DNA from: Saccoglossus kowalevskii
Taxonomy: Eukaryota > Hemichordata > Enteropneusta > Harrimaniidae
Assembly: GCF_000003605.2 (NCBI RefSeq)
Contig: NW_003131851.1
Span: 1-41,669 of the forward strand
Reading direction: 5' to 3'
DNA length: 41,669 bases
Shown here: one piece after another, positions 1 through 41,669 of the stretch
Position numbering within the stretch: the stretch's first letter is position 1
How the letters are laid out: each line of letters begins with the position of its first letter
Program-made: the position numbers and the translations under genes
The notes under the pieces: generated by a model
Database searches by the model: none
The model's input: the letters and a program-made list of their open reading frames with translations, nothing else
What the model was told of the DNA's origin: nothing

Positions 1-300
1 GCTCATTCAGCTCAGACCACTACTCTTAGCACGGTGACAGCTCATACCACTACTTCTAGCACAGTGACAGCTCATACCACTACTCCTAGCATGGTGACAG
101 CTCAGACCACTACTCCTAGCATAGTGACAGCTCATACCACTACTCCTAGCATAGTGACAGCTCAGACCACTACTCCTAGCATAGTGACAGCTCATACCAC
201 TACTCCTAGCATAGTGACAGCTCAGACCACTACTCCTAGCATAGTGACAGCTCATACCACTACTCCTAGCATAGGTTACAGCTCATACCACTACTCCTAG
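1..300 (+). CDS. candidate mucin-like repeat frame, segment 1 (open at the left edge)
   Basis: The frame is open from base 1 and begins with the odd reading AHSAQTTTLSTV. Seven more units follow, alternating His and Gln at codon 4. An extra G near 274 throws the frame into a stop at 298-300. A copy at 29096-29666 lacks this G and reads through, so the break is either very recent or an error. If coding, this is part of a Thr-rich, presumably O-glycosylated secreted domain. That is inferred from composition alone; there is no signal peptide, cysteine-knot or von Willebrand domain to anchor it. Confidence 0.3.
   Translation, partial: AHSAQTTTLSTVTAHTTTSSTVTAHTTTPSMVTAQTTTPSIVTAHTTTPSIVTAQTTTPSIVTAHTTTPSIVTAQTTTPSIVTAHTTTPSIGYSSYHYS
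271..276. other. frame break: extra G
   Basis: ATAGGTTACAG stands where ATAGTTACAG occurs in other copies. The otherwise identical segment at 29096-29666 lacks the extra G. It moves the open frame by +1. Confidence 0.9.
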
Positions 301-304
301 CATA

Positions 305-1036
305 GTGACAGCTCAGACCACTACTCCTAGCATAGTGACAGCTCATACCACTACTCCTAGCATAGTGACAGCTCATACCACTACTCCTAGCATAGTGACA
401 GCTCAGACCACTACTCCTAGCATAGTGACAGCTCATACCACTACTTCTAGCATAGTGACAGCTCATACCACTACTCCTAGAATAGTGACAGCTCAGACCA
501 CTACTCCTAGCATATTGACAGCTCATTCAGCTCAGACCACTACTTCTAGCATAGTGATAGCTCATACCACTACTTCTAGCATAGTGACAGCTCAGACCAC
601 TACTCCTAGCATAGTGACAGCTCATACCACTACTTCTTGCTTGGTGACAGCTCATATCACTACTTCTAGCATAGTGACAGCTCATACCACTAATCCTAGC
701 ATGGTGACAGGTCCTACTACTACTCTTAGCATGGTGACAGCTCATACCACTACTTCTAGCATAGTGACAGCTCATACCACTACTTCTTGCTTGGTGACAG
801 CTCATATCACTACTTCTAGCATAGTGACAGCTCATACCACTAATCCTAGCATGGTGACAGGTCCTACTACTACTCTTAGCATGGTGACAGCTCATACCAC
901 TACTTCTAGCATAGTGACAGCTCAGACCACAACTCCTAGCATAGTGACAGCTCATACCACTACTCCTAGCATGCTGACAGCTCAGACCACTACTCCTTGC
1001 ATAGTGACAGCTCATACCAGCTACTCCTTAGCATAG
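305..1036 (+). CDS. candidate mucin-like repeat frame, segment 2 (243 codons)
   Basis: It continues segment 1 after a +1 shift. It contains the LTAHSAQ three-residue insertion near 524. From 631 a five-unit module carries Cys-Leu (TTTSCL), Ile (AHITTSSI), Asn (TTNPSM) and Gly-Pro (VTGPTTTLSM), and it is repeated at once from 781. The GTG start is arbitrary because the frame is open on both sides of it apart from the indels. It ends when an inserted G at 1020 and an extra T at 1028-1029 disturb the frame. Coding status is uncertain, as for the other segments. Confidence 0.3.
   Translation: MTAQTTTPSIVTAHTTTPSIVTAHTTTPSIVTAQTTTPSIVTAHTTTSSIVTAHTTTPRIVTAQTTTPSILTAHSAQTTTSSIVIAHTTTSSIVTAQTTTPSIVTAHTTTSCLVTAHITTSSIVTAHTTNPSMVTGPTTTLSMVTAHTTTSSIVTAHTTTSCLVTAHITTSSIVTAHTTNPSMVTGPTTTLSMVTAHTTTSSIVTAQTTTPSIVTAHTTTPSMLTAQTTTPCIVTAHTSYSLA
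520..536 (+). repeat. 39-bp unit with a 9-base insertion (AHSAQTTT)
   Basis: CATTCAGCT is inserted before CAG, resembling an imperfect local copy of the flanking CAGCTCA. The same unit occurs at 4, 7763, 29099 and 29618. It keeps the + frame but introduces TGA on the - strand. Confidence 0.9.
631..930 (+). repeat. 150-bp five-unit module in tandem (TTTSCL, AHITTSSI, TTNPSM, VTGPTTTLSM, TTTSSI)
   Basis: Two head-to-tail copies start at 631 and 781. The same tandem pair recurs at 6721 and 6871, and single copies near 7871 and 13271. The five variants always travel together. Confidence 0.9.
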
Positions 1037-1135
1037 TGACAGCTCAGACCACTACTCCTAGCATAGTGACAGCTCATACCACTACTTCTAGCATAGTGAC
1101 AGCTCATACCACTACTCTAGCATGGTGACAGCTCT
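1019..1135. other. cluster of four single-base indels with zero net shift
   Basis: An inserted G at 1020 and an extra T at 1028-1029 are followed by a missing C near 1117 and another near 1134. The frame is therefore wrong for about 115 bases and then restored. The matching segment at 32270-32390 has none of these changes. Confidence 0.9.
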
Positions 1136-2040
1136 ACTACTACTCTTAGCATGGTGACTGCTCATACCACTACTTCTAGCATAGTGACAGCTCATACCAC
1201 TACTCTTAGCATGGAGACAGCTCCAACTACTACTCTTAGCATGGTGACAGCTCATACCACTACTTCTAGCATAGTGACAGCTCAGACCACCACTCCTAGC
1301 ATAGTGACAGCTCATACCACTACTCCTAGCATGGTGACAGCTCAGACCACTACTCCTAGCATAGTGCCAACTCATACCACTACTCCTAGCATGGTGACCG
1401 CTCATACCACTACTCCTTGCATAGTGACAGCTCAGACCACTCCTCCTAGCATAGTGACAGCTCATACCACTACTCCTAGCATGGTGACCACTCATACCAC
1501 TACTCCTTGCATAGTGACAGCTCATACCACTACTCCTAGCATGCTGACAGCTCAGACCACTACTCCTAGCATAGTGACAGTTCATACCACTACTCCTAGC
1601 ATGGTGACCGCTCATACCACTACTCCTTGCATAGTGACAGCTCATACCACTACTCCTAGAATAGTGACAGCTCATACCACTACTCCTAGAATGGTGACAG
1701 CTCAGACCACTACTCCTAGCATAGTGACAGCTCATACCACTACTCCTAGCATGGTGACCGCTCATACCACTACTCCTTGCATAGTGACAGCTCATACCAC
1801 TACTCCTAGCATAGTGACAGCTCATACCACTACTCCTAGCATGGTGACAGCTCATACCACTACTCCTAGCATAGTGACAGCTCATACCACTACTCCTAGC
1901 ATAGTGACAGCTCATACCACTACTCCTAGCATAGTGACAGCTCATACCACTACTCCTAGCATGGTGACAGCTCATACCACTACTTCTAGCATAGTGACAG
2001 CTCATACCACTACTCCTAGCATGGTGACAGCTCCTACTAC
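1045..2040 (+). repeat. block shared with 32296-33291 (offset 31,251)
   Basis: Shared rare variants include ATGGAGACAGCTCCAACT (METAP), GTGCCAACTCAT (VPTH), CAGACCACTCCTCCTAGC (QTTPPSI) and CCTAGAATGG. Differences seen are the deletions at 1117 and 1134, and ATGCTG near 1551. Confidence 0.85.
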
Positions 2041-5000: not shown

Positions 5001-6355
5001 GTCCTACTACTACTCTTAGCATGGTGACAGCTCATACCACTACTCCTTGCATGGTGACAGCTCAGACCACTCCTCCTAGCATAGTGACAGCTCATACCAC
5101 TACTCCTAGCATGGTGACCACTCATACCACTACTCCTTGCATAGTGACAGCTCATACCACTACTCCTAGCATGGTGACAGCTCAGACCACTACTCCTAGC
5201 ATAGTGACAGTTCATACCACTACTCCTAGCATGGTGACCGCTCATACCACTACTCCTTGCATAGTGACAGCTCATACCACTACTCCTAGAATAGTGACAG
5301 CTCATACCACTACTCCTAGAATGGTGACAGCTCATACCACTACTCCTAGCATAGTGACAGCTCATACCACTACTCCTAGCATAGTGACAGCTCATACCAC
5401 TACTCCTAGCATAGTGACAGCTCATACCACTACTCCTAGCATAGTGACAGCTCATACCACTACTCCTAGCATGGTGACAGCTCATACCACTACTCCTAGC
5501 ATAGTGACAGCTCATACCACTACTCCTAGCATAGTGACAGCTCATACCACTACTCCTAGCATGTTGACAGCTCATACCACTACTCCTAGCATGGTGACAG
5601 CTCATACCACTACTCCTAGCATGGTGACAGCTCATACCACTACTCCTAGCATAGTGACAGCTCATACCACTACTCCTAGCATGGTGACAGCTCATACCAC
5701 TACTCCTTGCATAGTGACAGCTCATACCACTACTCCTAGCATAGTGACAGCTCATACCACTACTCCTAGCATGGTGACAGCTCAGACCACTACTCCTAGC
5801 ATAGTGACAGCTCATACCACTACTCCTAGCATGGTGACCGCTCATACCACTACTCCTTGCATAGTGACAGCTCATACCACTACTCCTAGCATAGTGACAG
5901 CTCATACCACTACTCCTAGCATGGTGACAGCTCATACCACTACTCCTAGCATAGTGACAGCTCATACCACTACTCCTAGCATAGTGACAGCTCATACCAC
6001 TACTCCTTGCATGGTGACCGCTCATGCCCCTACTCCTTGCATAGTGACAGCTCATACCACTACTCCTAGCATAGTGACAGCTCATACCACTACTCCTAGC
6101 ATGGTGACAGCTCAGACCACTACTCCTAGCATAGTGACAGCTCATACCACTACTCCTAGCATGGTGACCGCTCATACCACTACTCCTTGCATAGTGACAC
6201 CTCATACCACTACTCCTAGCATAGTGACAGCTCATACCACTACTCCTAGCATGGTGACAGCTCATACCACTACTCCTAGCATAGTGACAGCTCATACCAC
6301 TACTCCTAGCATAGTGACAGCTCATACCACTACTCATAGCATGGTGACAGCTTAG
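1151..6355 (+). CDS. candidate mucin-like repeat frame, segment 3 (1,734 codons)
   Basis: This open stretch of about 173 units is in the same frame as segment 2 once the 1020-1135 indels cancel. Its left part (to about 2040) matches 32402-33291 closely and shares the rare readings METAP and VPTH. Gln units are common up to about 4540. From 5200 to 5780 the units are nearly all His-type, differing mainly by Ile or Met at the end. Cys-bearing TTTPCI units occur throughout, almost always after a Met-ending unit. It ends at a TAG (6353-6355) where a Gln CAG codon is expected; the frame resumes at once downstream. Confidence 0.35.
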   Translation: MVTAHTTTSSIVTAHTTTLSMETAPTTTLSMVTAHTTTSSIVTAQTTTPSIVTAHTTTPSMVTAQTTTPSIVPTHTTTPSMVTAHTTTPCIVTAQTTPPSIVTAHTTTPSMVTTHTTTPCIVTAHTTTPSMLTAQTTTPSIVTVHTTTPSMVTAHTTTPCIVTAHTTTPRIVTAHTTTPRMVTAQTTTPSIVTAHTTTPSMVTAHTTTPCIVTAHTTTPSIVTAHTTTPSMVTAHTTTPSIVTAHTTTPSIVTAHTTTPSIVTAHTTTPSMVTAHTTTSSIVTAHTTTPSMVTAPTTTLSMVTAHTTTSSMVTAHTTTPSMVTTHTTTPCIVTAHTTTPSRVTAHTTTPSMVTAHTTTPSIVTAHTTTLSIVTAHTTTPSIVTAHTTTPSMVTAHTTTSSIVTAHTTTPSMVTAPTTTLSMVTAHNTTSSIVTAHTTTPRMVTAPTTTLSMVTAHTTTPSMVTAHTTTPCIVTAHTTTPCMVTAQTTTPSIVTAHTTTPSMVTAHTTTPCIVTAHTTTPSIVTAHTTNPSIVTAHTTTPCIVTAHTTTPSIVTAQTTTSSIVTAHTTTSSIVTAQTTTPSIVTAQTTTSSIVTVHTTTSSLVTAHTTTSSIVTAHTTTPRMVTAPTTTLSMVTAHTTTSSIVTAHTTTPSMVTAPTTTLSMVTAHTTTSSIVTAQTTTPSIVTAHTTTLSMVTAPTTTLSMVTAHTTTSSTVTAQTTTPSTVTAHTTTPSMVTAQTTTPSIVTAHTTTPSMVTAHTTSPCIVTAQTTTPSIVTAHTTTSSIVTAQTTTSSIVTAHTTTSSMVTAHTTTSSIVTAHTTTPSMVTAHTTTLSMVTAHTTTSSIVTAHTTTPSMVTAPTTTLSMVTAHTTTSSIVTAQTTTPSIVTAHTTTPSMVTAQTTTPSIVTAHTTTSSMVTAHTTTPSIVTAQTTTSSIVTAHTTTPSIVTAHTTTPSMVTAPTTTPSMVTAHTTTSSIVTAHTTNPSMVTGPTTTLSIVTAHTTTSSIVTAQTTTPSIVTAHTTTPSMVTAQTTTPSIVTAHTTTPSIVTAQTTTPSKVTAHTTTPSIVTAQTTTPSIATAHTTTPSIVTAHTTTPSIVTAQTTTPSMVTTHTATPCIVTAHTTTPSMVTAQTTTPSRVTVHTTTPSMVTAPTTTPSMVTAHTTTSSMVTAHTTTPSMVTAHTTTPSMVTAHTTTPSMVTAHTTTPSMVTAHTTTPCIVTAHTTTPSMVTAHTTTPSIVTAHTTTPSMVTAHTTTPSIVTAHTTTPSIVTAHTTTPSIVTAHTTAPSMVTGPTTTLSMVTAHTTTPCMVTAQTTPPSIVTAHTTTPSMVTTHTTTPCIVTAHTTTPSMVTAQTTTPSIVTVHTTTPSMVTAHTTTPCIVTAHTTTPRIVTAHTTTPRMVTAHTTTPSIVTAHTTTPSIVTAHTTTPSIVTAHTTTPSIVTAHTTTPSMVTAHTTTPSIVTAHTTTPSIVTAHTTTPSMLTAHTTTPSMVTAHTTTPSMVTAHTTTPSIVTAHTTTPSMVTAHTTTPCIVTAHTTTPSIVTAHTTTPSMVTAQTTTPSIVTAHTTTPSMVTAHTTTPCIVTAHTTTPSIVTAHTTTPSMVTAHTTTPSIVTAHTTTPSIVTAHTTTPCMVTAHAPTPCIVTAHTTTPSIVTAHTTTPSMVTAQTTTPSIVTAHTTTPSMVTAHTTTPCIVTPHTTTPSIVTAHTTTPSMVTAHTTTPSIVTAHTTTPSIVTAHTTTHSMVTA
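6353..6355 (+). other. in-frame TAG in place of CAG (first of three)
   Basis: GCTTAGACC replaces GCTCAGACC in a Gln-type unit, a C-to-T change. The frame is open on both sides of it. The same change in a similar two-unit context occurs at 36134 and 37276. Confidence 0.95.
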
Positions 6356-6370
6356 ACCACTACTCCTAGC

Positions 6371-8416
6371 ATGGTGACAGCTCAGACCACTACTCCTAGC
6401 ATAGTGACAGCTCAGACCACTTCTCCTAGCATAGTGACAGCTCATACCACTACTCCTAGCATGGTGACAGTTCCTACTACTACTCTTAGCATGGTGACAG
6501 CTCATACCACTACTTCTAGCATAGTGACAGCTCAGACCACTACTCCCAGCATAGTGACAGCTCATACCACTACTCCTAGCATAGTGACAGCTCATACCAC
6601 TACTCCTAGCATAGTGACAGCTCAGACCACTACTCCTAGCATAGTGATAGCTCATACCACTACTCCTAGCATAGTGACAGCTCATACCACTACTCCTAGC
6701 ATAGTGACAGCTCATACCACTACTTCTTGCTTGGTGACAGCTCATATCACTACTTGTAGCATAGTGACAGCTCATACCACTAATCCTAGCATGGTGACAG
6801 GTCCTACTACTACTCTTAGCATGGTGACAGCTCATACCACTACTTCTAGCATAGTGACAGCTCATACCACTACTTCTTGCTTGGTGACAGCTCATATCAC
6901 TACTTCTAGCATAGTGACAGCTCATACCACTAATCCTAGCATGGTGACAGGTCCTACTACTACTCTTAGCATGGTGACAGCTCATACCACTACTTCTAGC
7001 ATAGTGACAGCTCAGACCACAACTCCTAGCATAGTGACAGCTCATACCACTACTCCTAGCATGGTGACAGCTCAGACCACTACTCCTTGCATAGTGACAG
7101 CTCATACCACTACTCCTAGCATAGTGACAGCTCAGACCACTACTCCTAGCATAGTGACAGCTCATACCACTACTCCTAGCATAGTGACAGCTCAGACCAC
7201 TACTCCTAGCATAGTGACAGCTCAGACCACTACTCCTAGCATAGTTACAGCTCATACCACTACTCCTAGCATAGTGACAGCTCAGACCACTACTCCTAGC
7301 ATAGTGACAGCTCATACCACTACTCCTAGCATAGTGACAGCTCATACCACTACTCCTAGCATAGTGACAGCTCAGACCACTACTCCTAGCATAGTGACAG
7401 CTCATACCACTACTTCTAGCATAGTGACAGCTCATACCACTACTCCTAGAATAGTGACAGCTCAGACCACTACTCCTAGCATAGTGACAGCTCATACCAC
7501 TACTCCTAGCATAGTGACAGCTCAGACCACTACTCCTAGCATAGTGACAGCTCATACCACTACTCCTAGCATATTGACAGCTCATACCACTACTCCTAGC
7601 ATAGTGACAGCTCAGACCACTACTTCTAGCATAGTGACAGCTCAGACCACTACTCCTCGCATAGTGACAGCTCATACCACTACTTCTAGCTTGGTGACAG
7701 CTCATACCACTACTTCTAGCATAGTGACAGCTCATACCACTACTCCTAGCATATTGACAGCTCATTCAGCTCAGACCACTACTTCTAGCATAGTGATAGC
7801 TCATACCACTACTTCTAGCATAGTGACAGCTCAGACCACTACTCCTAGCATAGTGACAGCTCATACCACTACTTCTTGCTTGGTGACAGCTCATATCACT
7901 ACTTCTAGCATAGTGACAGCTCATACCACTAATCCTAGCATGGTGACAGGTCCTACTACTACTCTTAGCATGGTGACAGCTCATACCACTACTTCTAGCA
8001 TAGTGACAGCTCAGACCACAACTCCTAGCATAGTGACAGCTCATACCACTACTCCTAGCATGGTGACAGCTCAGACCACTACTCCTAGCATAGTGACAGC
8101 TCATACCACTACTCCTAGCATAGTGACAGCTCAGACCACTATTCCTAGCATAGTGACAGCTCATACCACTACTCCTAGCATAGTGACAGCTCAGACCACT
8201 ACTCCTAGCATAGTGACAGCTCATACCACTACTCCTAGCATAGTTACAGCTCATACCACAACTCCTAGCATAGTGACAGCTCAGACCACTACTCCTAGCA
8301 TAGTGACAGCTCATACCACTACTCCTAGCATAGTGACAGCTCATACCACTACTCCTAGCATAGTGACAGCTCAGACCACTACTCCTAGCAGTGACAGCTC
8401 AGACCACTACTTCTAG
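6371..8416 (+). CDS. candidate mucin-like repeat frame, segment 4 (681 codons)
   Basis: Same frame as segment 3, separated from it only by the TAG at 6353. It repeats the TTTSCL/AHITT/TTNPSM/VTGP module twice (6721 and 6871), exactly 6,090 bp after the pair at 631 and 781, and once more near 7871. From about 7090 to 7560 it is mostly alternating His and Gln units, a 60-bp super-period. A third copy of the LTAHSAQ insertion lies at 7763. A 2-base deletion near 8390 (AGCAGTG in place of AGCATAGTG) ends the frame. Confidence 0.35.
   Translation: MVTAQTTTPSIVTAQTTSPSIVTAHTTTPSMVTVPTTTLSMVTAHTTTSSIVTAQTTTPSIVTAHTTTPSIVTAHTTTPSIVTAQTTTPSIVIAHTTTPSIVTAHTTTPSIVTAHTTTSCLVTAHITTCSIVTAHTTNPSMVTGPTTTLSMVTAHTTTSSIVTAHTTTSCLVTAHITTSSIVTAHTTNPSMVTGPTTTLSMVTAHTTTSSIVTAQTTTPSIVTAHTTTPSMVTAQTTTPCIVTAHTTTPSIVTAQTTTPSIVTAHTTTPSIVTAQTTTPSIVTAQTTTPSIVTAHTTTPSIVTAQTTTPSIVTAHTTTPSIVTAHTTTPSIVTAQTTTPSIVTAHTTTSSIVTAHTTTPRIVTAQTTTPSIVTAHTTTPSIVTAQTTTPSIVTAHTTTPSILTAHTTTPSIVTAQTTTSSIVTAQTTTPRIVTAHTTTSSLVTAHTTTSSIVTAHTTTPSILTAHSAQTTTSSIVIAHTTTSSIVTAQTTTPSIVTAHTTTSCLVTAHITTSSIVTAHTTNPSMVTGPTTTLSMVTAHTTTSSIVTAQTTTPSIVTAHTTTPSMVTAQTTTPSIVTAHTTTPSIVTAQTTIPSIVTAHTTTPSIVTAQTTTPSIVTAHTTTPSIVTAHTTTPSIVTAQTTTPSIVTAHTTTPSIVTAHTTTPSIVTAQTTTPSSDSSDHYF
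6721..7020 (+). repeat. second tandem pair of the 150-bp five-unit module
   Basis: Offset of 6,090 bp (203 units) from the pair at 631. One unit here reads AHITTCSI instead of AHITTSSI. Confidence 0.9.
8387..8393. other. frame break: 2-base deletion
   Basis: CCTAGCAGTGACAG replaces the usual form with TA between AGCA and GTG. The open frame shifts by two bases here. Confidence 0.9.
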
Positions 8417-15707: not shown

Positions 15708-15803
15708 CATAGTGACAGCTCATACCACTACTCCTAGCATAGTGACAGCTCATACCACTACTTCTAGCTTGGTGACAGCTCATACCACTACTTCTAGCAT
15801 AAG
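15694..15803. other. frame breaks: extra C (15697-15698) and extra A (15801-15802)
   Basis: ACCACCTAC has one C too many and ATAAGTGAC one A too many; both duplicate the neighbouring base. The roughly 100 bases between them lie in a third frame that carries on the repeat pattern undisturbed. Confidence 0.9.
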
Positions 15804-19639: not shown

Positions 19640-19643
19640 CATA

Positions 19644-33200: not shown

Positions 33201-36136
33201 CTACTCCTAGCATGGTGACAGCTCATACCACTACTTCTAGCATAGTGACAGCTCATACCACTACTCCTAGGATGGTGACAGCTCCTACTACTACTCTTAG
33301 CATGGTGACAGCTCATACCACTACTCCTAGCATGGCGACCGCTCATACCACAACTCCTTGCATAGTGACAGCTCATACCACTACTCCTTGCATGGTGACA
33401 GCTCAGACCACTACTCCTAGCATAGTGACAGCTCATACCACTACTCCTAGCATGGTGACCGCTCATACCACTACTCCTTGCATAGTGACAGCTCATACCA
33501 CTACTCCTTGCATAGTGACAGCTCATACCACTACTTCTAGCATAGTGACAGCTCAGACCACTACTTCTAGACTAGTGACAGTTCATACCACTACTTCTAG
33601 CTTGGTGACAGCTCATACCACTACTTCTAGCATAGTGACAGCTCATACCACTACTCCTAGCATGGTGACAGCTCCTACTACTACTCTTAGCATGGTGACA
33701 GCTCATACCACTACTTCTAGCATAGTGACAGCTCATACCACTACTCCTAGCATGGTGACAGCTCCTACTACTACTCTTAGCATGGTGACAGCTCATACCA
33801 CTACTTCTAGCATAGTGACAGCTCAGACCACTACTCCTAGCATAGTGACAGCTCATACCACTACTACTAGCATGGTGACAGCTCAGACCACTACTCCTAG
33901 CATAGTGACAGCTCATACCACTACTCCTAGCATGGTGACAGCTCCTACTACTACTCTTAGCATGGTGACAGCTCATACCACTACTTCTAGCATAGTGACA
34001 GCTCATACCACTACTCCTAGGATGGTGACAGCTCCTACTACTACTCTTAGCATGGTGACAGCTCATACCACTACTCCTAGCATGGTGACCGCTCATACCA
34101 CAACTCCTTGCATAGTGACAGCTCATACCACTACTCCTTGCATGGTGACAGCTCAGACCACTACTCCTAGCATAGTGACAGCTCATACCACTACTCCTAG
34201 CATGGTGACAGCTCATACCACTACTTCTAGCATAGTGACAGCTCATACCACAACTCCTAGCATAGTGACAGCTCATACCACTACTCCTAGCATGGTGACA
34301 GCTCATACCACTACTTCTAGCATAGTGACAGCTCATACCACTACTCCTAGCATGGTGACAGCTCCTACTACTACTCTTAGCATGGTGACAGCTCATACCA
34401 CTACTTCTAGCATAGTGACAGCTCATACCACTACTCCTAGGATGGTGACAGCTCCTACTACTACTCTTAGCATGGTGACAGCTCATACCACTACTCCTAG
34501 CATGGTGACCGCTCATACCACAACTCCTTGCATAGTGACAGCTCATACCACTACTCCTTGCATGGTGACAGCTCATACCACTACTCCTAGCATAGTGACA
34601 GCTCATACCACTACTCCTAGCATAGTGACAGCTCATACCACTACTCCTAGCATGGTGACCGCTCATACCACTACTCCTTGCATAGTGACAGCTCATACCA
34701 CTACTCCTAGCATGGTGACAGCTCAGACCACTACTCCTAGCATAGTAACAGCTCATAACACTACTCCTAGCATGGTGACCGCTCATACCACTACTCCTTG
34801 CATTGTGACAGCTCATACCACTGCTCCTAGCATAGTGACAGCTCAGACCACTACTCCTAGCATAGTGACAGCTCATACCACTACTCCCAGCATAGTGACA
34901 GCTCAGACCACTACTCCTAGCATAGTGACAGCTCATACCACTACTCCTAGCATAGTGACAGCTCAGACCACTACTCCTAGCATAGTGACAGCTCATACCA
35001 CTACTTCAAGCTTGGTGACAGCTCATACCACTACTTCTAGCATAGTGACAGCTCATACCACTACTCCTAGCATGGTGACAGCTCCTACTACTACTCTTAG
35101 CATGGTGACAGCTCATACCACTACTTCTAGCATAGTGACAGCTCATACCACTACTCTTAGCATGGTGACAGCTCCTACTACTACTCTTAGCATGGTGACA
35201 GCTCATACCACTACTTCTAGCATAGTGACAGCTCAGACCACCACTCCTAGCACAGTGACAGCTCATACCACTACTCCTAGCATGGTGACAGCTCAGACCA
35301 CTACTCCTAGCATAGTGACAGCTCATACCACTACTCCTAGCATGGTGACCGCTCATACCACTTCTCCTTGCATAGTGACAGCTCAGACCACTCCTCCTAG
35401 CATAATGACAGCTCATACCACTACTCCTAGCATGGTGACCACTCATACCACTACTCCTTGCATAGTGACAGCTCATACCACTACTCCTAGCATGGTGACA
35501 GCTCCTAATACTACTCTTAGCATGGTGACAGCTCATACCACTACTTCTAGCATAGTGACAGCTCAGACCGCTACTCCTCGCATAGTGACAGCTCATACCA
35601 CAACTCCTTGCATAGTGACAGCTCATACCACTACTCCTTGCATGGTGACAGCTCAGACCACTACTCCTAGCATAGTGACAGCTCATACCACTACTCCTAG
35701 CATGGTGACCGCTCATACCACTACTCCTTGCATAGTGACAGCTCATACCACTACTCCTAGCATGGTGACAGCTCAGACCACTACTCCTAGCATAGTAACA
35801 GCTCATACCACTACTCCTAGCATGGTGACCGCTCATACCACTACTCCTTGCATAGTGACAGCTCATACCACTGCTCCTAGCATAGTGACAGCTCAGACCA
35901 CTACTCCTAGCATAGTGACAGCTCATACCACTACTCCTAGCATAGTGACAGCTCAGACCACTACTCCTAGCATAGTGACAGCTCAGACCACTACTCCTAG
36001 CATGGTGACAGCTCAGACCACTACTCCTAGCATAGTGACAGCTCAGACCACTACTCCTAGCATAGTGACAGCTCATACCACTACTCCTAGCACGGTGACA
36101 GCTCATACCACTACTCCTAGCATGGTGACAGCTTAG
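24200..36136 (+). CDS. candidate mucin-like repeat frame, segment 8 (3,978 codons, longest unbroken stretch)
   Basis: Nearly 12 kb with no frameshift, the best single argument for a real long repeat exon. Two units are one codon short (25394 and 32098, reading TTTSMV), and both losses are in frame. Two LTAHSAQ insertions (29099 and 29618) lie 519 bp apart, as do 4 and 524 at the window start. Rare readings VTAYTTT, VTALTTT, METAP and VPTH link it to 9.2 kb and 1.2 kb. It ends at a TAG (36134-36136) in place of a Gln codon, in the same kind of unit as the stop at 6353. If the stops are real, the array is not translated end to end. Confidence 0.4.
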   Translation: MVTAPTTTLSMVTAHTTTSSIVTAQTTTPSIVTAHTTTPSMVTAQTTTPSIVTAHTTTPSMVTAHTTTPCIVTAQTTTPSIVTAHTTTPSIVTAHTTTPSMVTAHTTTPSIVTAHTTTPSIVTAHTTTPSIVTAHTTAPSMVTGPTTTLSTVTAHTTTSSIVTAQTTTPSIVTAHTTTPSMVTAQTTTPSIVTAHTTTPSIVTAQTTTPSIVTAHTTTPSIVTAQTTTPSIVTAHTTTPSIVTAHTTTPSIVTAQTTTPSMVTTHTTTPCIVTAHTTTPSMVTAQTTTPSIVTAQTTTPSIVTAHTTTSSLVTAHTTTSSIVTAHTTTPSTVTAPTTTLSMVTAHTTTSSIVTAHTTTPSMVTAPNTTLSMVTAHTTTSSIVTAQTTTPSIVTAHTTTSMVTAQTTTPSIVTAHTTTPSMVTAHTTTPCIVTAQTTTPSIVTAHTTTPSMVTTHTTTPCIVTAHTTTPSIVTAQTTTPSIVTAHTTTPCIVTAHTTTPSIVTAHTTTPSIVTAHTTTPSMVTAHTTTPCIVTAHTTTPSIVTAHTTTPSMVTAHTTTPCIVTAHTSTPSMVTAHTTTSSIVTAHTTTPSIVTAHTTTSSIVTAQTTTPSIVTAHTTTPSMVTAHTTTPSMVTAQTTTPSIVTAHTTVPSMVTAHTTTPSIVTAHTTTPSIVTAHTTTPSMVTSHTTTPSIVTAHTTTPSIVTAHTTTPSIVTAHTTTPSMVTAHTTTPSIVTAQTTTPSIVTAHTTTPCIVTAHTTTPSMVTAHTATPSIVTAHTTTPCIVTAHTTTLSIVTAQTTTPSIVTAHTTTPCIVTAHTTTPSIVTAHTTTPSTVTAHTTTPSMVTAQTTTPSIVTAHTTTPSIVTAQTTTPSIVTAHTTTPSIVTAQTTTPSIVTAHTTTPSIVTAHTTTPSIVTAQTTTPSIVTAHTTTPSIVTAHTTTPSIVTAQTTTPSMVTAHTTTPSIVTAHTTTPSIVTAHTTTPSIVTAHTTTPSIVTAQTTTPSIVTAHTTTPRMVTAHTTTPSMVTAQTTTPSMVTALTTTPCIVTAHTTTPCMVTAQTTTPSIVTAHTTTPSMVTAHTTTPCIVTAYTTTPSIVTAHTTTSSIVTAQTTTSSIVTVHTTTSSLVTAHTTTSSIVTAHTTTPSMVTAPTTTLSMVTAHTTTSSIVTAHTTTPSMVTAPTTTLSMVTAHTTTSSIVTAQTTTPSIVTAHTTTPSMVTAQTTTPSIVTAHTTTPSMVTAHTTTPCIVTAQTTNPSIVTAHTTTPSIVTAHTTTPSMVTAHTTTPSIVTAHTTTPSIVTAHTTTPSIVTAHTTTPSMVTAPTTTPSMVTAHTTTSSIVTAHTTNPSMVTGPTTTLSTVTAHTTTSSIVTAQTTTPSIVTAHTTTPSMVTAQTTTPRIVTAHTTTPSIVTAQTTTPSIVTAHTTTPSIVTAQTTTPSIVTAHTTTPSIVTAHTTTPSIVTAQTTTSSIVTAHTTTSSIVTAQTTTPSIVTAHTTTSSLVTAHTTTSSIVTAHTTTPSMVTAPTTTLSMVTAHTTTPSIVTAHTTTSSIVTAQTTTPRIVTAHTTTPSMVTAQTTTPSIVTAHTTTPSMVTAHTTTPCIVTAHTTTPSIVTSHTTTPSIVTAQTTTPSIVTAYTTTPSILTAHSAQTTTLSTVTAHTTTSSTVTAHTTTPSMVTAQTTTPSIVTAHTTTPSIVTAQTTTPSIVTAHTTTPSIVTAQTTTPSIVTAHTTTPSIVTAHTTTPSIVTAQTTTPSIVTAHTTTPSIVTAHTTTPSIVTAQTTTPSIVTAHTTTSSIVTAHTTTPRIVTAQTTTPSILTAHSAQTTTSSIVIAHTTTPSIVTAHTTTPSIVTAHTTTPSIVTAHTTTPSIVTAQTTTSSIVTAQTTTPSIVTAHTTTPSMVTAQTTTPRIVTAHTTTPSIVTAQTTTPSIVTAHTTTPSIVTAQTTTPSIVTAHTTTPSIVTAHTTTPSIVTAQTTTSSIVTAHTTTSSIVTAQTTTPSIVTAHTTTSSLVTAHTTTSSIVTAHTTTPSMVTAPTTTLSMVTAHTTTPSIVTAHTTTSSIVTAQTTTPRIVTAHTTTPSIVTAHTTTPCIVTAQTTTPSIVTAHTTTPSMVTTHTTSPCIVTAHTTTPSMVTAQITTTSIVTAHTTTPSMVTAHTTTHSIVTAHITIPSIVTAHTTTPSIVAAQTTTPGIVTAHTTTPSIVTAHTTTPSIVTAQTTTPSIVTAHTTTPSIVTAHTTNPSIVTAHTTTPCIVTAHTTTPSIVTAQTTTSSIVTAHTTTSSIVTAQTTTPSIVTAHTTTSSLVTAHTTTSSIVTAHTTTPSMVTASTTTLSMVTAHTTTSSIVTAHTTTPRIVTAHTTTPSIVTAHTTTPSMVTAHTTTPSIVTAHTTTPSMVTAHTTTPCIVTAHTTTPSMVTAQTTTPSIVTAHTTTPSMVTAHTTTPCIVTAHTTAPSIVTAQTTTPSIVTAHTTTPSIVTAQTTTPSIVTADTTTPSIVTAQTTTPSIVTAHTTTSSLVTAHTTTSSIVTAHTTTPSMVTAPTTTLSMVTAHTTTSSIVTAHTTTLSMVTAPTTTLSMVTAHTTTSSIVTAQTTTPSIVTAHTTTPSMVTAQTTTPSIVTAHTTTPSMVTAHTTTPCIVTAQTTPPSIVTAHTTTSMVTTHTTTPCIVTAHTTTPSMVTAPNTTLSMVTAHTTTSSIVTAQTTTPRIVTAHTTTPSMVTAQTTTPSIVTAHTTTSSIVTAHTTTPSMVTAPTTTLSMVTAHTTTSSIVTAHTTTLSMETAPTTTLSMVTAHTTTSSIVTAQTTTPSIVTAHTTTPSMVTAQTTTPSIVPTHTTTPSMVTAHTTTPCIVTAQTTPPSIVTAHTTTPSMVTTHTTTPCIVTAHTTTPSMVTAQTTTPSIVTVHTTTPSMVTAHTTTPCIVTAHTTTPRIVTAHTTTPRMVTAQTTTPSIVTAHTTTPSMVTAHTTTPCIVTAHTTTPSIVTAHTTTPSMVTAHTTTPSIVTAHTTTPSIVTAHTTTPSIVTAHTTTPSMVTAHTTTSSIVTAHTTTPRMVTAPTTTLSMVTAHTTTPSMATAHTTTPCIVTAHTTTPCMVTAQTTTPSIVTAHTTTPSMVTAHTTTPCIVTAHTTTPCIVTAHTTTSSIVTAQTTTSRLVTVHTTTSSLVTAHTTTSSIVTAHTTTPSMVTAPTTTLSMVTAHTTTSSIVTAHTTTPSMVTAPTTTLSMVTAHTTTSSIVTAQTTTPSIVTAHTTTTSMVTAQTTTPSIVTAHTTTPSMVTAPTTTLSMVTAHTTTSSIVTAHTTTPRMVTAPTTTLSMVTAHTTTPSMVTAHTTTPCIVTAHTTTPCMVTAQTTTPSIVTAHTTTPSMVTAHTTTSSIVTAHTTTPSIVTAHTTTPSMVTAHTTTSSIVTAHTTTPSMVTAPTTTLSMVTAHTTTSSIVTAHTTTPRMVTAPTTTLSMVTAHTTTPSMVTAHTTTPCIVTAHTTTPCMVTAHTTTPSIVTAHTTTPSIVTAHTTTPSMVTAHTTTPCIVTAHTTTPSMVTAQTTTPSIVTAHNTTPSMVTAHTTTPCIVTAHTTAPSIVTAQTTTPSIVTAHTTTPSIVTAQTTTPSIVTAHTTTPSIVTAQTTTPSIVTAHTTTSSLVTAHTTTSSIVTAHTTTPSMVTAPTTTLSMVTAHTTTSSIVTAHTTTLSMVTAPTTTLSMVTAHTTTSSIVTAQTTTPSTVTAHTTTPSMVTAQTTTPSIVTAHTTTPSMVTAHTTSPCIVTAQTTPPSIMTAHTTTPSMVTTHTTTPCIVTAHTTTPSMVTAPNTTLSMVTAHTTTSSIVTAQTATPRIVTAHTTTPCIVTAHTTTPCMVTAQTTTPSIVTAHTTTPSMVTAHTTTPCIVTAHTTTPSMVTAQTTTPSIVTAHTTTPSMVTAHTTTPCIVTAHTTAPSIVTAQTTTPSIVTAHTTTPSIVTAQTTTPSIVTAQTTTPSMVTAQTTTPSIVTAQTTTPSIVTAHTTTPSTVTAHTTTPSMVTA
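25391..25400 (+). repeat. 27-bp unit lacking one codon (first of two)
   Basis: ACCACTACTAGCATGG lacks one 3-base step, reading TTTSM. The second case is near 32098. Both keep the frame. Confidence 0.9.
29096..29666 (+). repeat. right copy of the segment at 1-572
   Basis: It matches base 1 onward at an offset of 29,095, changing to 29,094 after the extra G at 274. The frame is intact in this copy. Confidence 0.9.
30480..30700 (+). repeat. segment shared with 38972-39192 (offset 8,492)
   Basis: It carries ACTAGTCCTTGC, CAGATCACTACTACT and CATATCACTATTCC in the same order and spacing as the other copy. The near copy has a CATAGC unit where the far one has CTTGC. Confidence 0.85.
32296..33291 (+). 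repeat. right copy of the block at 1045-2040
   Basis: Frame intact here. A related copy lacking some of the markers lies at about 18300-18990. Confidence 0.85.
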
Positions 36137-36867
36137 ACCACTACTCCTAGCATGGTGACAGCTCAGACCACTACTCCTAGCATAGTGACAGCTCAGACCA
36201 CTACTCCTAGCATAGTGACAGCTCATACCACTACTCATAGCATAGTGACAGCTCAGACCACTACTCCTAGCATAGTGACAGCTCATACCACTACTCCTAG
36301 CATAGTGGCAGCTCAGACCACTACTCCTGGCATAGTGACAGCTCATACCACTACTCCTAGCATAGTGACAGCTCATACCACTACTCCTAGCATAGTGACA
36401 GCTCAGACCACTACCCCTAGCATAGTGACAGCTCATACCACTACTCCTAGCATAGTGACAGCTCATACCACTAATCCTAGCATAGTGACAGCTCATACCA
36501 CTACTCCTTGCATAGTGACAGCTCATACCACTACTCCAAGCATAGTGACAGCTCAGACCACTACTTCTAGCATAGTGACAGCTCATACCACTACTTCTAG
36601 CATAGTGACAGCTCAGACCACTACTCCTAGCATAGTGACAGCTCATACCACTACTTCTAGCTTGGTGACAGCTCATACCACTACTTCTAGCATAGTGACA
36701 GCTCATACCACTACTCCTAGCATGGTGACAGCTCCTACTACTACTCTTAGCATGGTGACAGCTCATACCACTACTTCTAGCATAGTGACAGCTCATACCA
36801 CTACTCCTAGCATGGTGACAGCTCCTACTACTACTACTCTTAGCATGGTGACAGCTCATACCACTAC
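35976..36867 (+). repeat. left copy of a duplication offset by 1,142 bp
   Basis: It shares with 37118-38009 the TAG unit, the TTTHSI and TTTPGI units, the CCAAGC unit and the extra ACT codon. The offset is 38 units plus 3 minus 1, explained by the extra codon and the lost base near 36930. Confidence 0.9.
36134..36136 (+). other. in-frame TAG in place of CAG (second of three)
   Basis: The same C-to-T change as at 6353, between a Met-ending His unit upstream and a Met-Gln unit downstream. It sits inside the left copy of the 1,142-bp-offset duplication. Confidence 0.95.
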
Positions 36868-36940
36868 TCCTAGCATAGTGATAGCTCATACCACTACTTC
36901 TAGCATAGTGACAGCTCTTAGCACTACTTCCACATGGTGA
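36152..36940 (+). CDS. candidate mucin-like repeat frame, segment 9 (262 codons)
   Basis: It resumes in the frame of segment 8 after the TAG. Most of it is the left copy of a 1,142-bp-offset duplication whose right copy starts near 37118. It carries a THSI unit, a TTTPGI unit and a Pro-type unit with one extra Thr codon (36824-36842). Its last residues, ALSTTSTW, belong to the divergent island. The frame is lost near 36930, where TTCCACATGG replaces the expected TTCTAGCATGG. Confidence 0.25.
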   Translation: MVTAQTTTPSIVTAQTTTPSIVTAHTTTHSIVTAQTTTPSIVTAHTTTPSIVAAQTTTPGIVTAHTTTPSIVTAHTTTPSIVTAQTTTPSIVTAHTTTPSIVTAHTTNPSIVTAHTTTPCIVTAHTTTPSIVTAQTTTSSIVTAHTTTSSIVTAQTTTPSIVTAHTTTSSLVTAHTTTSSIVTAHTTTPSMVTAPTTTLSMVTAHTTTSSIVTAHTTTPSMVTAPTTTTLSMVTAHTTTPSIVIAHTTTSSIVTALSTTSTW

Positions 36941-37117
36941 CAGCTCATACCATTACATCTATCATAGTGACAGCTCATAGCATTACTTCTAGCATGGTGA
37001 CAGCTCATACCACTACTCCTAGCATAGTGATAGCTCATACCACTACTTCTATCATAGCGACAGCTCATAGCATTACTTCTAGCATGGTGACAGCTCGTAC
37101 CACTACTTCTAGCATGG
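36868..37117 (+). repeat. divergent island of repeat units
   Basis: About eight units here carry several changes each: GTGATAG, GCTCTTAGC, CATTACATC, ATCATAG and CATAGCATTACT. A 90-bp (three-unit) internal duplication is visible, with ATCATAG at 36961 and ATCATAGCG at 37051. No other 250-bp stretch in the window is as diverged. Confidence 0.85.
36926..36936. other. frame break in the divergent island (-1)
   Basis: TTCCACATGG replaces TTCTAGCATGG, a loss of one base together with substitutions. Confidence 0.85.
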
Positions 37118-37278
37118 TGACAGCTCAGACCACTACTCCTAGCATGGTGACAGCTCAGACCACTACTCCTAGCATAGTGACAGCTCAGACCACTACTCCT
37201 AGCATAGTGACAGCTCATACCACTACTCCTAGCACGGTGACAGCTCATACCACTACTCCTAGCATGGTGACAGCTTAG
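36934..37278 (+). CDS. candidate mucin-like repeat frame, segment 10 (114 codons, divergent units)
   Basis: A short open stretch covering most of the divergent island. Units read AHTITSIIV, AHSITSSMV, AHTTTSIIAT and ARTTTSSMV, with more Ile and Ser than elsewhere. It ends at the third TAG (37276-37278), exactly 1,142 bp after the second, so the stop was copied with the surrounding block. This is weak as an independent coding region; it is best read as part of the same broken frame. Confidence 0.2.
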   Translation: MVTAHTITSIIVTAHSITSSMVTAHTTTPSIVIAHTTTSIIATAHSITSSMVTARTTTSSMVTAQTTTPSMVTAQTTTPSIVTAQTTTPSIVTAHTTTPSTVTAHTTTPSMVTA

Positions 37279-38009
37279 ACCACTACTCCTAGCATGGTGA
37301 CAGCTCAGACCACTACTCCTAGCATATTGACAGCTCAGACCACTACTCCTAGCATAGTGACAGCTCATACCACTACTCATAGCATAGTGACAGCTCAGAC
37401 CACTACTCCTAGCATAGTGACAGCTCATACCACTACTCCTAGCATAGTGGCAGCTCAGACCACTACTCCTGGCATAGTGACAGCTCATACCACTACTCCT
37501 AGCATAGTGACAGCTCATACCACTACTCCTAGCATAGTGACAGCTCAGACCACTACTCCTAGCATAGTGACAGCTCATACCACTACTCCTAGCATAGTGA
37601 CAGCTCATACCACTAATCCTAGCATAGTGACAGCTCATACCACTACTCCTTGCATAGTGACAGCTCATACCACTACTCCAAGCATAGTGACAGCTCAGAC
37701 CACTACTTCTAGCATAGTGACAGCTCATACCACTACTTCTAGCATAGTGACAGCTCAGACCACTACTCCTAGCATAGTGACAGCTCATACCACTACTTCT
37801 AGCTTGGTGACAGCTCATACCACTACTTCTAGCATAGTGACAGCTCATACCACTACTCCTAGCATGGTGACAGCTTCTACTACTACTCTTAGCATGGTGA
37901 CAGCTCATACCACTACTTCTAGCATAGTGACAGCTCATACCACTACTCCTAGCATGGTGACAGCTCCTACTACTACTACTCTTAGCATGGTGACAGCTCA
38001 TACCACTAC
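37118..38009 (+). repeat. right copy of the duplication offset by 1,142 bp
   Basis: Private differences from the left copy include ATATTG near 37324 and GCTTCT near 37874. Confidence 0.9.
37276..37278 (+). other. in-frame TAG in place of CAG (third of three)
   Basis: It lies exactly 1,142 bp after the second TAG, in the right copy of the same duplication. Confidence 0.95.
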
Positions 38010-41000
38010 TTCTAGCATAGTGACAGCTCAGACCACTACTCCCAGCATAGTGACAGCTCATACCACTGCTCCTAGCATGGTGACAGCTCAGACCACTACT
38101 CCCAGCATAGTGACAGCTCATACCACTACTCCTAGCATGGTGACAGCTCAGACCACTACTCCTAGCATAGTGACAGCTCATACCACTACTCCTAGCATAG
38201 TGACAGCTCATACCACTACTCCTAGCATGGTGACAGCTCCTACTACTACTCTTAGCATGGCGACAGCTCATACCACTACTTCTAGCATAGTGACAGCTCA
38301 GACCACTACTCCCAGCATAGTGACAGCTCATACCACTACTCCTAGCATGGTGACAGCTCAGACCACTACTCCTAGCATGGTGACTGCTCAGACCACTACT
38401 CCTAGCATAGTGACCGCTCATACCACTACTCCTTGCATAGTGACAGCTCAGACCACTACTCCTAGCATAGTGACAGCTCATACCACTACTCCTAGCATGG
38501 TGACCGCTCATACCACTAGTCCTTGCATAGTGACAGCTCATACCACTACTCCTAGCATGGTGACAGCTCAGACCACTACTCCCAGCATAGTGACAGCTCA
38601 TACCACTACTCCTAGCATGGTGACAGCTCAGACCACTACTCCTAGCATAGTGACAGCTCATACCACTACTCCTAGCATAGTGACAGCTCATACCACTACT
38701 CCTAGCATGGTGACAGCTCCTACTACTACTCTTAGCATGGTGACAGCTCATACCACTACTTCTAGCATAGTGACAGCTCAGACCACTACTCCCAGCATAG
38801 TGACAGCTCATACCACTACTCCTAGCATGGTGACAGCTCAGACCACTACTCCTAGCATGGTGACAGCTCAGACAACTACTCCTAGCATAGTGACCGCTCA
38901 TACCACTACTCCTTGCATAGTGACAGCTCAGACCACTACTCCTAGCATAGTGACAGCTCATACCACTACTCCTAGCATGGTGACCACTCATACCACTAGT
39001 CCTTGCATAGTGACAGCTCATACCACTACTCCTAGCATGGTGACAGCTCAGATCACTACTACTAGCATAGTGACAGCTCATACCACTACTCCTAGCATGG
39101 TGACCGCTCATACCACTACTCCTTGCATAGTGACAGCTCATATCACTATTCCTAGCATAGTGACAGCTCATACCACTACTCCTAGCATGGTGACAGCTCA
39201 GACCACTACTCCTAGCATAGTGACAGCTCATACCACTACTTCTAGCTTGGTGACAGCTCATACCACTACTTCTAGCATAGTGACAGCTCATACCACTACT
39301 CCTAGCATGGTGACAGCTCCTACTACTACTCTTAGCATGGTGACAGCTCATACCACTACTTCTAGCATAGTGACAGCTAATACCACTACTCTTAGCATGG
39401 TGACAGCTCCTACTACTACTCTTAGCATGGTGACAGCTCATAACACTACTTCTAGCATAGTGACTGCTCAGACCACTACTCCTAGCATAGTGACAGCTCA
39501 TACCACTACTCCTAGCATGGTGACAGCTCAGACCACTACTCCTAGCATAGAGACAGCTCATACCACTACTCCTAGCATGGTGACCGCTCATACCACTACT
39601 CCTTGCATAGTGACAGCTCATACCACTACTCCTAGCATAGTGACAGCTCATACCACTACTCCTAGCATGGTGACAGCTCAGACCACTACTCCTAGCATAG
39701 TGACAGCTCATACCACTACTCCTAGCATGGTGACCGCTCATACCACTACTCCTTGCATAGTGACAGCTCATACCACTACTCCTAGCATAGTGACAGCTCA
39801 TACCACTACTCCTAGCATGGTGACAGCTCATACCACTACTCCTAGCATAGTGACAGCTCATACCACTACTCCTAGCATAGTGACAGCTCATACCACTACT
39901 CCTTGCATGGTGACCGCTCATGCCCCTACTCCTTGCATAGTGACAGCTCATACCACTACTCCTAGCATAGTGACAGCTCATACCACTACTCCTAGCATGG
40001 TGACAGCTCAGACCACTACTCCTAGCATAGTGACAGCTCATACCACTACTCCTAGCATGGTGACCGCTCATACCACTACTCCTTGCATAGTGACAGCTCA
40101 TACCACTACTCCTAGCATAGTGACAGCTCATACCACTACTCCTAGCATGGTGACAGCTCATACCACTACTTCTAGCATAGTGACAGCTCATACCACTACT
40201 CCTAGCATGGTGACAGCTCATACTACTACTTCTAGCATGGTGACAGCTCATACCACTACTTCTAGCATAGTGACAGCTCATACCACTACTCCTAGCATAG
40301 TGACAGCTCCTACTACTACTCTTAGCATGGTGACAGCTCATACCACTACTCCTTGCATAGTGACAGCTCATACCACTACTCCTAGCATAGTGACAGCTCA
40401 TACCACTACTCCTAGCATGGTGACAGCTCATACCACTACTCCTAGCATAGTGACAGCTCATACCACTACTCCTAGCATAGTGACAGCTCATACCACTACT
40501 CCTAGCATAGTGACAGCTCATACCACTACTCCTAGCATGGTGACAGCTCATACCACTACTTCTAGCATAGTGACAGCTCATACCACTACTCCTAGCATGG
40601 TGACAGCTCCTACTACTACTCTTAGCATGGTGACAGCTCATACCACTACTTCTAGCATAGTGACAGCTCAGACCACTACTCCTCGCATAGTGACAGCTCA
40701 TACCACTACTCCTAGCATGGTGACAGCTCAGACCACTACTCCTAGCATAGTGACAGCTCATACCACTACTTCTAGCATAGTGACAGCTCATACCACTACT
40801 CCTAGCATGGTGACAGCTCCTACTACTACTCTTAGCATGGTGACAGCTCATACCACTACTTCTAGCATAGTGACAGCTCATACCACTACTCCTAGCATGG
40901 TGACAGCTCATACTACTACTCTTAGCATGGTGACAGCTCATACCACTACTTCTAGCATAGTGACAGCTCAGACCACTACTCCTAGCATAGTGACAGCTCA

Positions 41001-41669
41001 TACCACTACTCCTAGCATAGTGACAGCTCAGACCACTACTCCTAGCATAGTGACAGCTCATACCACTACTCCTAGCATAGTTACAGCTCATACCACTACT
41101 CCTAGCATAGCGACAGCTCAGACCACTACTCCTAGCATGGTGACCACTCATACCGCTACTCCTTGCATAGTGACAGCTCATACCACTACTCCTAGCATGG
41201 TGACAGCTCAGACCACTACTCCTAGCATAGTGACAGTTCATACCACTACTCCTAGCATGGTGACCGCTCATACCACTACTCCTTGCATAGTGGCAGCTCA
41301 TACCACTACTCCTAGCATAGTGACAGCTCATACCACTACTCCTAGCATGGTGACAGCTCAGACCACTACTCCTAGCATAGTGACAGCTCATACCACTACT
41401 CCTAGCATGGTGACCGCTCATACCACTACTCCTTGCATAGTGACAGCTCATACCACTACTCCTAGCATAGTGACAGCTCATACCACTACTCCTAGCATGG
41501 TGACAGCTCATACCACTACTCCTAGCATAGTGACAGCTCATACCACTACTCCTAGCATAGTGACAGCTCATACCACTACTCCTAGCATAGTGACAGCTCA
41601 TACCACTACTCCTAGCATGGTGACAGCTCATACCACTACTTCTAGCATAGTGACAGCTCATACCACTAC
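37294..41669 (+). CDS. candidate mucin-like repeat frame, segment 11 (open at the right edge, about 1,458 codons)
   Basis: The frame of segment 10 resumes after the TAG and I see no stop or shift before the window ends. It includes the right copy of the 1,142-bp duplication (37118-38009), a 480-bp-period tandem duplication (38030-39000), and stretches shared with 30.5 kb (AQITTTSI and AHITIPSI units) and with 6.0 kb (AHAPTPCI unit at 39922). Two units between about 40130 and 40250 mix Met and Ser types. As before, a Thr/Ser/Pro-rich secreted domain is the most natural product if it is translated. Confidence 0.35.
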   Translation, partial: MVTAQTTTPSILTAQTTTPSIVTAHTTTHSIVTAQTTTPSIVTAHTTTPSIVAAQTTTPGIVTAHTTTPSIVTAHTTTPSIVTAQTTTPSIVTAHTTTPSIVTAHTTNPSIVTAHTTTPCIVTAHTTTPSIVTAQTTTSSIVTAHTTTSSIVTAQTTTPSIVTAHTTTSSLVTAHTTTSSIVTAHTTTPSMVTASTTTLSMVTAHTTTSSIVTAHTTTPSMVTAPTTTTLSMVTAHTTTSSIVTAQTTTPSIVTAHTTAPSMVTAQTTTPSIVTAHTTTPSMVTAQTTTPSIVTAHTTTPSIVTAHTTTPSMVTAPTTTLSMATAHTTTSSIVTAQTTTPSIVTAHTTTPSMVTAQTTTPSMVTAQTTTPSIVTAHTTTPCIVTAQTTTPSIVTAHTTTPSMVTAHTTSPCIVTAHTTTPSMVTAQTTTPSIVTAHTTTPSMVTAQTTTPSIVTAHTTTPSIVTAHTTTPSMVTAPTTTLSMVTAHTTTSSIVTAQTTTPSIVTAHTTTPSMVTAQTTTPSMVTAQTTTPSIVTAHTTTPCIVTAQTTTPSIVTAHTTTPSMVTTHTTSPCIVTAHTTTPSMVTAQITTTSIVTAHTTTPSMVTAHTTTPCIVTAHITIPSIVTAHTTTPSMVTAQTTTPSIVTAHTTTSSLVTAHTTTSSIVTAHTTTPSMVTAPTTTLSMVTAHTTTSSIVTANTTTLSMVTAPTTTLSMVTAHNTTSSIVTAQTTTPSIVTAHTTTPSMVTAQTTTPSIETAHTTTPSMVTAHTTTPCIVTAHTTTPSIVTAHTTTPSMVTAQTTTPSIVTAHTTTPSMVTAHTTTPCIVTAHTTTPSIVTAHTTTPSMVTAHTTTPSIVTAHTTTPSIVTAHTTTPCMVTAHAPTPCIVTAHTTTPSIVTAHTTTPSMVTAQTTTPSIVTAHTTTPSMVTAHTTTPCIVTAHTTTPSIVTAHTTTPSMVTAHTTTSSIVTAHTTTPSMVTAHTTTSSMVTAHTTTSSIVTAHTTTPSIVTAPTTTLSMVTAHTTTPCIVTAHTTTPSIVTAHTTTPSMVTAHTTTPSIVTAHTTTPSIVTAHTTTPSIVTAHTTTPSMVTAHTTTSSIVTAHTTTPSMVTAPTTTLSMVTAHTTTSSIVTAQTTTPRIVTAHTTTPSMVTAQTTTPSIVTAHTTTSSIVTAHTTTPSMVTAPTTTLSMVTAHTTTSSIVTAHTTTPSMVTAHTTTLSMVTAHTTTSSIVTAQTTTPSIVTAHTTTPSIVTAQTTTPSIVTAHTTTPSIVTAHTTTPSIATAQTTTPSMVTTHTATPCIVTAHTTTPSMVTAQTTTPSIVTVHTTTPSMVTAHTTTPCIVAAHTTTPSIVTAHTTTPSMVTAQTTTPSIVTAHTTTPSMVTAHTTTPCIVTAHTTTPSIVTAHTTTPSMVTAHTTTPSIVTAHTTTPSIVTAHTTTPSIVTAHTTTPSMVTAHTTTSSIVTAHTT
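38030..39000 (+). repeat. tandem duplication with 480-bp (16-unit) period
   Basis: The copies run 38030-38520 and 38510-39000, each with CCCAGCATAG units and ending at ACCACTAGTCCTTGC (38511 and 38991). GGCGACAG near 38260 and GTGACTGC near 38382 distinguish the first copy. Confidence 0.9.

Follow-up and report, generated by a model that had tools for sequence, protein, structure and literature searches.

Does an array of a single 30-bp unit that fills an entire contig encode a giant repeat protein, or is it non-coding DNA? The question is raised by contig NW_003131851.1 of the hemichordate Saccoglossus kowalevskii (assembly GCF_000003605.2), which was analysed over its whole length of 41,669 bp (contig C2339, hereafter the window). 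The array is probably a very large, neutrally evolving, non-coding minisatellite of the variable number of tandem repeats (VNTR) type. Its plus strand would be, or would once have been, readable as a Thr/Ser/Pro-rich peptide; the array would now evolve without detectable protein-level constraint and, as we infer, without being translated.

Tandem Repeats Finder reported a 30-bp period over positions 8..41669 (1387.5 copies, 91% matches, 0% indels), and in a wrap-around alignment 1,389 units, both partial ends counted, filled all 41,669 bases head-to-tail. Both methods agree with an earlier note on this DNA, which had described the whole window as about 1,389 copies of a single 30-bp unit, open at both ends. 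The 41,669-bp window contains no stretch of unique sequence, which is far beyond chance. Regular 30-mers account for 1,367 of the 1,389 units and comprise 166 distinct sequences encoding 113 distinct peptides; on average, a 30-bp unit differs from the consensus by 4.9%. The base composition is flat, with a guanine-plus-cytosine (GC) content of 0.465-0.497 and a GC skew of -0.336 to -0.395 when measured in 1-kb windows over 1-41000 (n = 41). At the window start, bases 1-36 correspond to the 39-bp variant unit at 29093 in truncated form, so the repeat begins at base 1, and the window spans the entire contig, which cannot be extended further within the assembly. By unit length and head-to-tail order the array belongs with minisatellites or VNTRs (units of about 10-100 bp).

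Both strands of the whole genome (572,110,611 bases in 4,830 contigs) were searched with a 32-base pattern of the unit, allowing up to three mismatches; the pattern read backwards served as control. The unit pattern gave 2,445 matches (1,343 forward and 1,102 reverse), the control none. Counted locally, the same pattern occurs 1,343 times in the window, 831 times in contig C2148 and 271 times in contig C3585. These counts sum to the genome total, and the unit is therefore, at up to three mismatches, restricted to three small contigs. C2148 (25,847 bp) consists of the array throughout, whereas in C3585 (19,985 bp) the array covers 6133-19985 and positions 1-6132 read N; over the three contigs it amounts to 81,369 bp. 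Matches listed in a protein search, in which 150 of 3,345 candidates were scored, also lay on these three contigs only, and diverged copies may exist elsewhere. A junction between the array and unique sequence was not found, as the start of C3585 reads N and the other contig ends that were read sit inside the array. The contigs are not joined to one place; most simply, they probably belong to a single locus, 81 kb or more in length, which the assembler would have left as three repeat contigs.

The array on C3585 has features of its own. Its regular units are 11% diverged from the window consensus, 26 units are 36 bp long, and a higher-order repeat is present with spacings of 1,904-2,447 bp (six intervals, 88-98% alike). 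A pattern for one special unit of this contig matched the genome 16 times, in all 16 cases within C3585. C3585 may represent an edge of the array, because more degenerate units occur at the array boundaries in about one half of the human mucins examined, according to the available part of a preprint (PMC13345508). The higher-order repeat, as well as the existence of contigs that hold nothing but repeat, would also suit a conventional multi-locus satellite DNA (e.g., centromeric), three contigs of which were assembled; the assembly may have collapsed or omitted satellite sequence, and diverged units were searched for in part (see above). However, the unit pattern, at up to three mismatches, occurs in only three of the 4,830 contigs, about 81 kb in total, and we regard a satellite as quite unlikely.

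Within the window, the unit variants are non-randomly arranged. The mutual information of adjacent units is 2.34 bits, whereas 200 shuffles gave 1.51 (sd 0.03); the most frequent triplet of unit types occurs 28 times. Identical runs of at least 12 units were found in ten pairs, separated by 14 to 1,129 units; the longest extends over 19 units, whereas a single shuffle gave a maximum of 5. The window and C2148 share 179 exact runs of at least 200 bp (longest 703 bp), and the 40 of these that were listed fall on many diagonals, not on one. Neighbouring units are no closer in likeness than random ones (8.5% versus 8.2% divergence); the exchanged piece would therefore usually be larger than one unit. 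The array would have grown by unequal exchange or conversion of multi-unit blocks, which would also keep it homogeneous. The non-random arrangement and the confinement to three contigs are in accordance with the view of the earlier note that, if non-coding, this would be an unusually long and structured minisatellite. A false expansion of a shorter array by the assembly might likewise generate a block repeated at a distance of 1,142 bp, 600 bp of it 100% identical, and clusters of single-base indels (Table 1). However, 166 unit types follow one another in non-repeating order along 41 kb and the longest exact self-repeat found measures 617 bp, which makes an artefact of length highly improbable.

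The plus-strand unit reads TAHTTTPSIV, in which six of ten residues are Pro, Thr, or Ser, as in the Pro/Thr/Ser-rich (PTS) repeats of mucin exons. Stops were counted in the regular units. Of the 1,367 regular window units, 1,364 carry no stop in the plus frame, and the longest open run measures 3,988 amino acids. An identical unit with an in-frame TAG is present in 3 of 1,367 regular units of the window and in 1 of 844 regular units of C2148. Because it occurs three times in the window, two of them in the repeated block, and once more in C2148, this unit was most likely inherited and is not a random read error. New stops arise as rarely as expected without selection: one stop event was seen among 176 events in the window (0.9 expected under neutrality), none in the 418 regular units (of 458) of C3585 (0.2 expected), and one in the three contigs together (1.2 expected). 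Few single changes turn a codon of the unit into a stop, and the scarcity of stops therefore does not argue for a gene. On the antisense strand, the frame reads HYARSSGMSC and is likewise nearly open; when the regular window units are joined, it contains 6 stops.

Substitution events were obtained by linking each rarer unit type to the nearest commoner type; 2 of 165 links were dropped because they exceeded two steps. Expected numbers were derived by moving every change to the other equal bases. The 176 events in the window comprise 44 synonymous, 131 nonsynonymous, and 1 stop change (expected 46.4, 128.7, and 0.9, respectively), corresponding to a nonsynonymous-to-synonymous ratio (omega) of 1.07 (bootstrap 0.78-1.54). 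When each distinct change was counted once, 17 of 73 were synonymous (18.6 expected). Thr and Ser were not retained, as 56 losses were found and 54.1 expected. With links of up to three steps, omega was 1.09 in the window, 1.13 in C2148, 1.21 in C3585, and 1.10 over all three (412 events); the antisense frame showed no constraint either (omega 0.93, three contigs). Array evolution with block exchange was simulated in 160 runs, 40 for each true omega of 1, 0.7, 0.5, and 0.3, and an estimate of at least 1.07 was reached in 10, 3, 0, and 0 runs, respectively. Because no run at 0.5 or 0.3 attained the value of the window, strong or moderate constraint is excluded under the simulated model, and weak constraint is still allowed. 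Selection on the encoded residues, as would mark a mucin PTS exon, was thus not detected.

The alanine codon GCT showed a peculiarity at its third base, which is T in 1,388 of 1,388 aligned window units although the position is fourfold degenerate. None of the 176 events fell there, compared to about 6 if changes were even; the overall test of evenness was not significant (P 0.28).

Thirteen frame-breaking indels, all single-copy, are distributed over 12 units of the window (Table 1). Eight of them lie less than 400 bp from another one (P 0.013), and four fall inside 114 bp, which did not happen in any of 20,000 random placements. Counted by eye, the inserted base repeats its neighbour in six of seven single insertions (P 0.048), and a CC is shortened in three of five single deletions (P 0.042). 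A frame-breaking 29-bp unit of C3585 is present in seven copies spaced 1.9-2.4 kb apart. Based on the window, multi-copy indels appeared always to be in frame (three in-frame multi-copy types versus 13 single-copy frame-breaking indels, P 0.0018), but this rule is weakened by two multi-copy frame-breaking variants in the sibling contigs. The variants of +3, -3, and +6 resemble slippage within the ACC/ACT/CCT triplet run; no selection is needed for them. In C2148, GCTCATACC becomes GCTATACC in four units of three different backgrounds, either by a recurrent error or by a spreading deletion.

Table 1. Positions of the array and of variant units, stops and a repeated block in the window
Feature	Position	Strand	Remarks
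30-bp tandem array, about 1,389 units	1..41669	+	whole contig C2339; consensus ACAGCTCATACCACTACTCCTAGCATAGTG = TAHTTTPSIV
39-bp unit, in-frame 9-bp insertion	518..556	+	others at 7757, 29093, 29612; truncated one at window start
27-bp unit, in-frame 3-bp deletion	25376..25402	+	second copy at 32081
33-bp unit, in-frame 3-bp insertion	36818..36850	+	second copy at 37960
31-bp unit, +1, frame-breaking	247..277	+	single copy
Four clustered single-base indels (+1 +1 -1 -1)	1007..1156	+	three units
28-bp unit, 2-bp deletion, frame-breaking	8366..8393	+	single copy
Four clustered single-base indels (+1 +1 +1 -1)	15684..16075	+	four units
31-bp unit, +1, frame-breaking	19616..19646	+	single copy
29-bp unit, -1, frame-breaking	24177..24205	+	single copy
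29-bp unit, -1, frame-breaking	36911..36939	+	single copy; more diverged patch
In-frame TAG	6353..6355	+	unit starting at 6347
In-frame TAG	36134..36136	+	unit starting at 36128; terminates longest open run (3,988 aa)
In-frame TAG	37276..37278	+	unit starting at 37270; duplicate of the surroundings of 36128
Repeated block	35900..36799	+	second copy about 37042-37941 (offset 1142); three 300-bp tiles 96%, 100%, 100% identical; limits approximate

As assembled, the array is unlikely to be a continuously translated exon, given the TAG unit and the frameshift unit, each in several copies, and an omega near 1. The earlier note had suggested a repeat exon of nearly 13,900 residues. The part of this suggestion that holds is the open frame in almost all regular units; it does not run through the array uninterrupted, since 13 frame-breaking indels and three TAG codons break it in the window, and no constraint on substitutions accompanies it.

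Several observations weigh against a non-coding array. The unit length is divisible by three, and an equally Pro/Thr/Ser-rich open frame was found in just 6.9% of shuffled units. The omega test was calibrated on simulated arrays, not on a real mucin. The single-copy and hence youngest events (n = 67) lean weakly towards constraint, with 22 synonymous changes where 17.6 were expected (P 0.11), and the nonsynonymous:synonymous counts are 45:22 in these types versus 86:22 in the remaining events (P 0.07). Gains of Thr or Ser numbered 17, with 12.0 expected (P 0.075). Many of the single-copy frame-breaking indels may be assembly errors, because they are clustered and mostly alter short base runs. 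Over the three contigs, 24 frame-breaking variants are single-copy and 2 multi-copy, compared to 8 and 9, respectively, of the in-frame variants. This count leaves out pieces of 6, 9, 10, 17, and 22 bases and includes two or three frame-breaking variants close to the ends of C2148, several in-frame variants that represent a single event, and one that combines -1 with +1. In simulations, neutral indel types were single-copy in about a quarter of cases. Multi-copy frame-breaking indels are therefore rarer than expected under plain neutrality, unless many of the single-copy ones are errors; simulated unit types, too, were less often single-copy than the observed ones (0.28 versus 72 of 166). Finally, the MUC16 repeat is called the most degenerate and relatively relaxed in the available part of the preprint (PMC13345508).

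The main rival to the minisatellite is a mucin exon, relaxed or decayed, which stays viable because so few frame-breaking indels are multi-copy and because the frame is rich in Thr. In its mucin-type form, the array would be a PTS exon whose Thr-rich repeats are translated and O-glycosylated, the exact residues being little constrained; most frame breaks would be assembly errors, and the TAG units would belong to a null or rare allele or to a non-functional copy. We consider this possible, but clearly less likely than a non-coding array. It gains from the composition and openness of the frame, from the clustering and run-length type of the frame-breaking indels in the window, from the apparently single locus, and from the multi-copy indel variants, 9 of 11 of which change the length by a multiple of three, although the +3, -3, and +6 indels can result from ACC/ACT slippage without selection. 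The genome also contains at least 158 matches to the VWD domain (150 of 425 candidates scored; e.g., on contigs C889, C1503, C2922, and C3574), several of them clustered on single contigs and, taken with the genome size, in line with an animal host. However, none of the matches listed is located on the three array contigs (SEA was not searched for), and Pfam gave no family for two translated stretches of 1,000 and 1,463 amino acids. Four TAG units on two contigs, seven copies of a frameshift unit in C3585, an omega of 1.10 over 412 events, and the lack of Thr/Ser retention also speak against translation.

The mucin reading also gains from the existence of long human mucin arrays. According to the available part of the preprint (PMC13345508), human MUC12 proteins range from 4,677 to 23,080 amino acids and the longest MUC4 VNTR allele measures 27,843 bp; the statement of the earlier note that nearly 13,900 residues would be exceptional even among mucins is therefore not supported for the length of the window. 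In the same part, all mucin loci studied except MUC19 are described as retaining an open frame in CHM13. It is rather doubtful that a single mucin-type exon, at least 81 kb in length and with more than 27,000 residues, extends over all three contigs and that its apparent frame breaks are errors or tolerated alleles. If so, this exon would exceed in length the longest human mucin allele given in the available part of PMC13345508 and among the longest animal repeat exons.

Further comparisons were made with the unit and its translation. TAL-effector-type repeats are about 34 residues long. A phmmer search of the plus-frame translation of 37279-39279 against PDB listed 27 chains, all of TAL-effector type or TALE-like (TAL effector, Hax3, dHax3, TALE repeat protein, TOD4, and TOD6, the latter two presumably of the TALE-like type), with a best E value of 4e-24. 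These matches were rejected as an artefact of repetition and composition, because they set repeats of about 34 residues against a repeat of ten and Pfam gave no match. A 30-mer of the unit had no match in the viral contig and genome contig sets, from which records near the source genome were possibly excluded, and matched only short pieces in plasmids (one record, E 3) and phages (two records, E 0.9 and 3). No Rfam family was found in bases 1-6000, the part searched, and no transfer RNA; single-strand folding was no better than that of shuffled sequences (z -0.47 and -0.29). The peptide and DNA strings of the unit that were tried did not occur in the literature searched.

If non-coding, the array is a clean case of a 30-bp array that reached 80 kb via block exchange and kept a frame almost free of stops without selection. 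An open frame alone would then be no evidence of a gene, which calls for caution in the annotation of giant repeat proteins. A coding array, on the other hand, would rank among the longest known repeat exons.

Three known systems resemble the array. With satellite DNA that has higher-order repeats it shares the 1.9-2.4 kb repeats of 30-bp and 36-bp units in C3585, but here the unit is 30 bp and its pattern is confined to three small contigs. The VNTR exons of mucin PTS domains (human MUC4 and MUC12, in the available part of PMC13345508) are similar in their Thr/Ser/Pro-rich repeats of 3n length extending over tens of kilobases, and the more degenerate units of C3585, a possible edge, fit as well; in contrast, the array has multi-copy TAG and frameshift units and no detected constraint, and no mucin exon was seen alongside, where no flank is readable. 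Minisatellite or VNTR loci share with it the head-to-tail units of tens of bases, the variant units, the block-wise similarity and, apparently, the location at one locus, and the array differs from them in being very long, 41 kb in the window and at least 81 kb with the sibling contigs.

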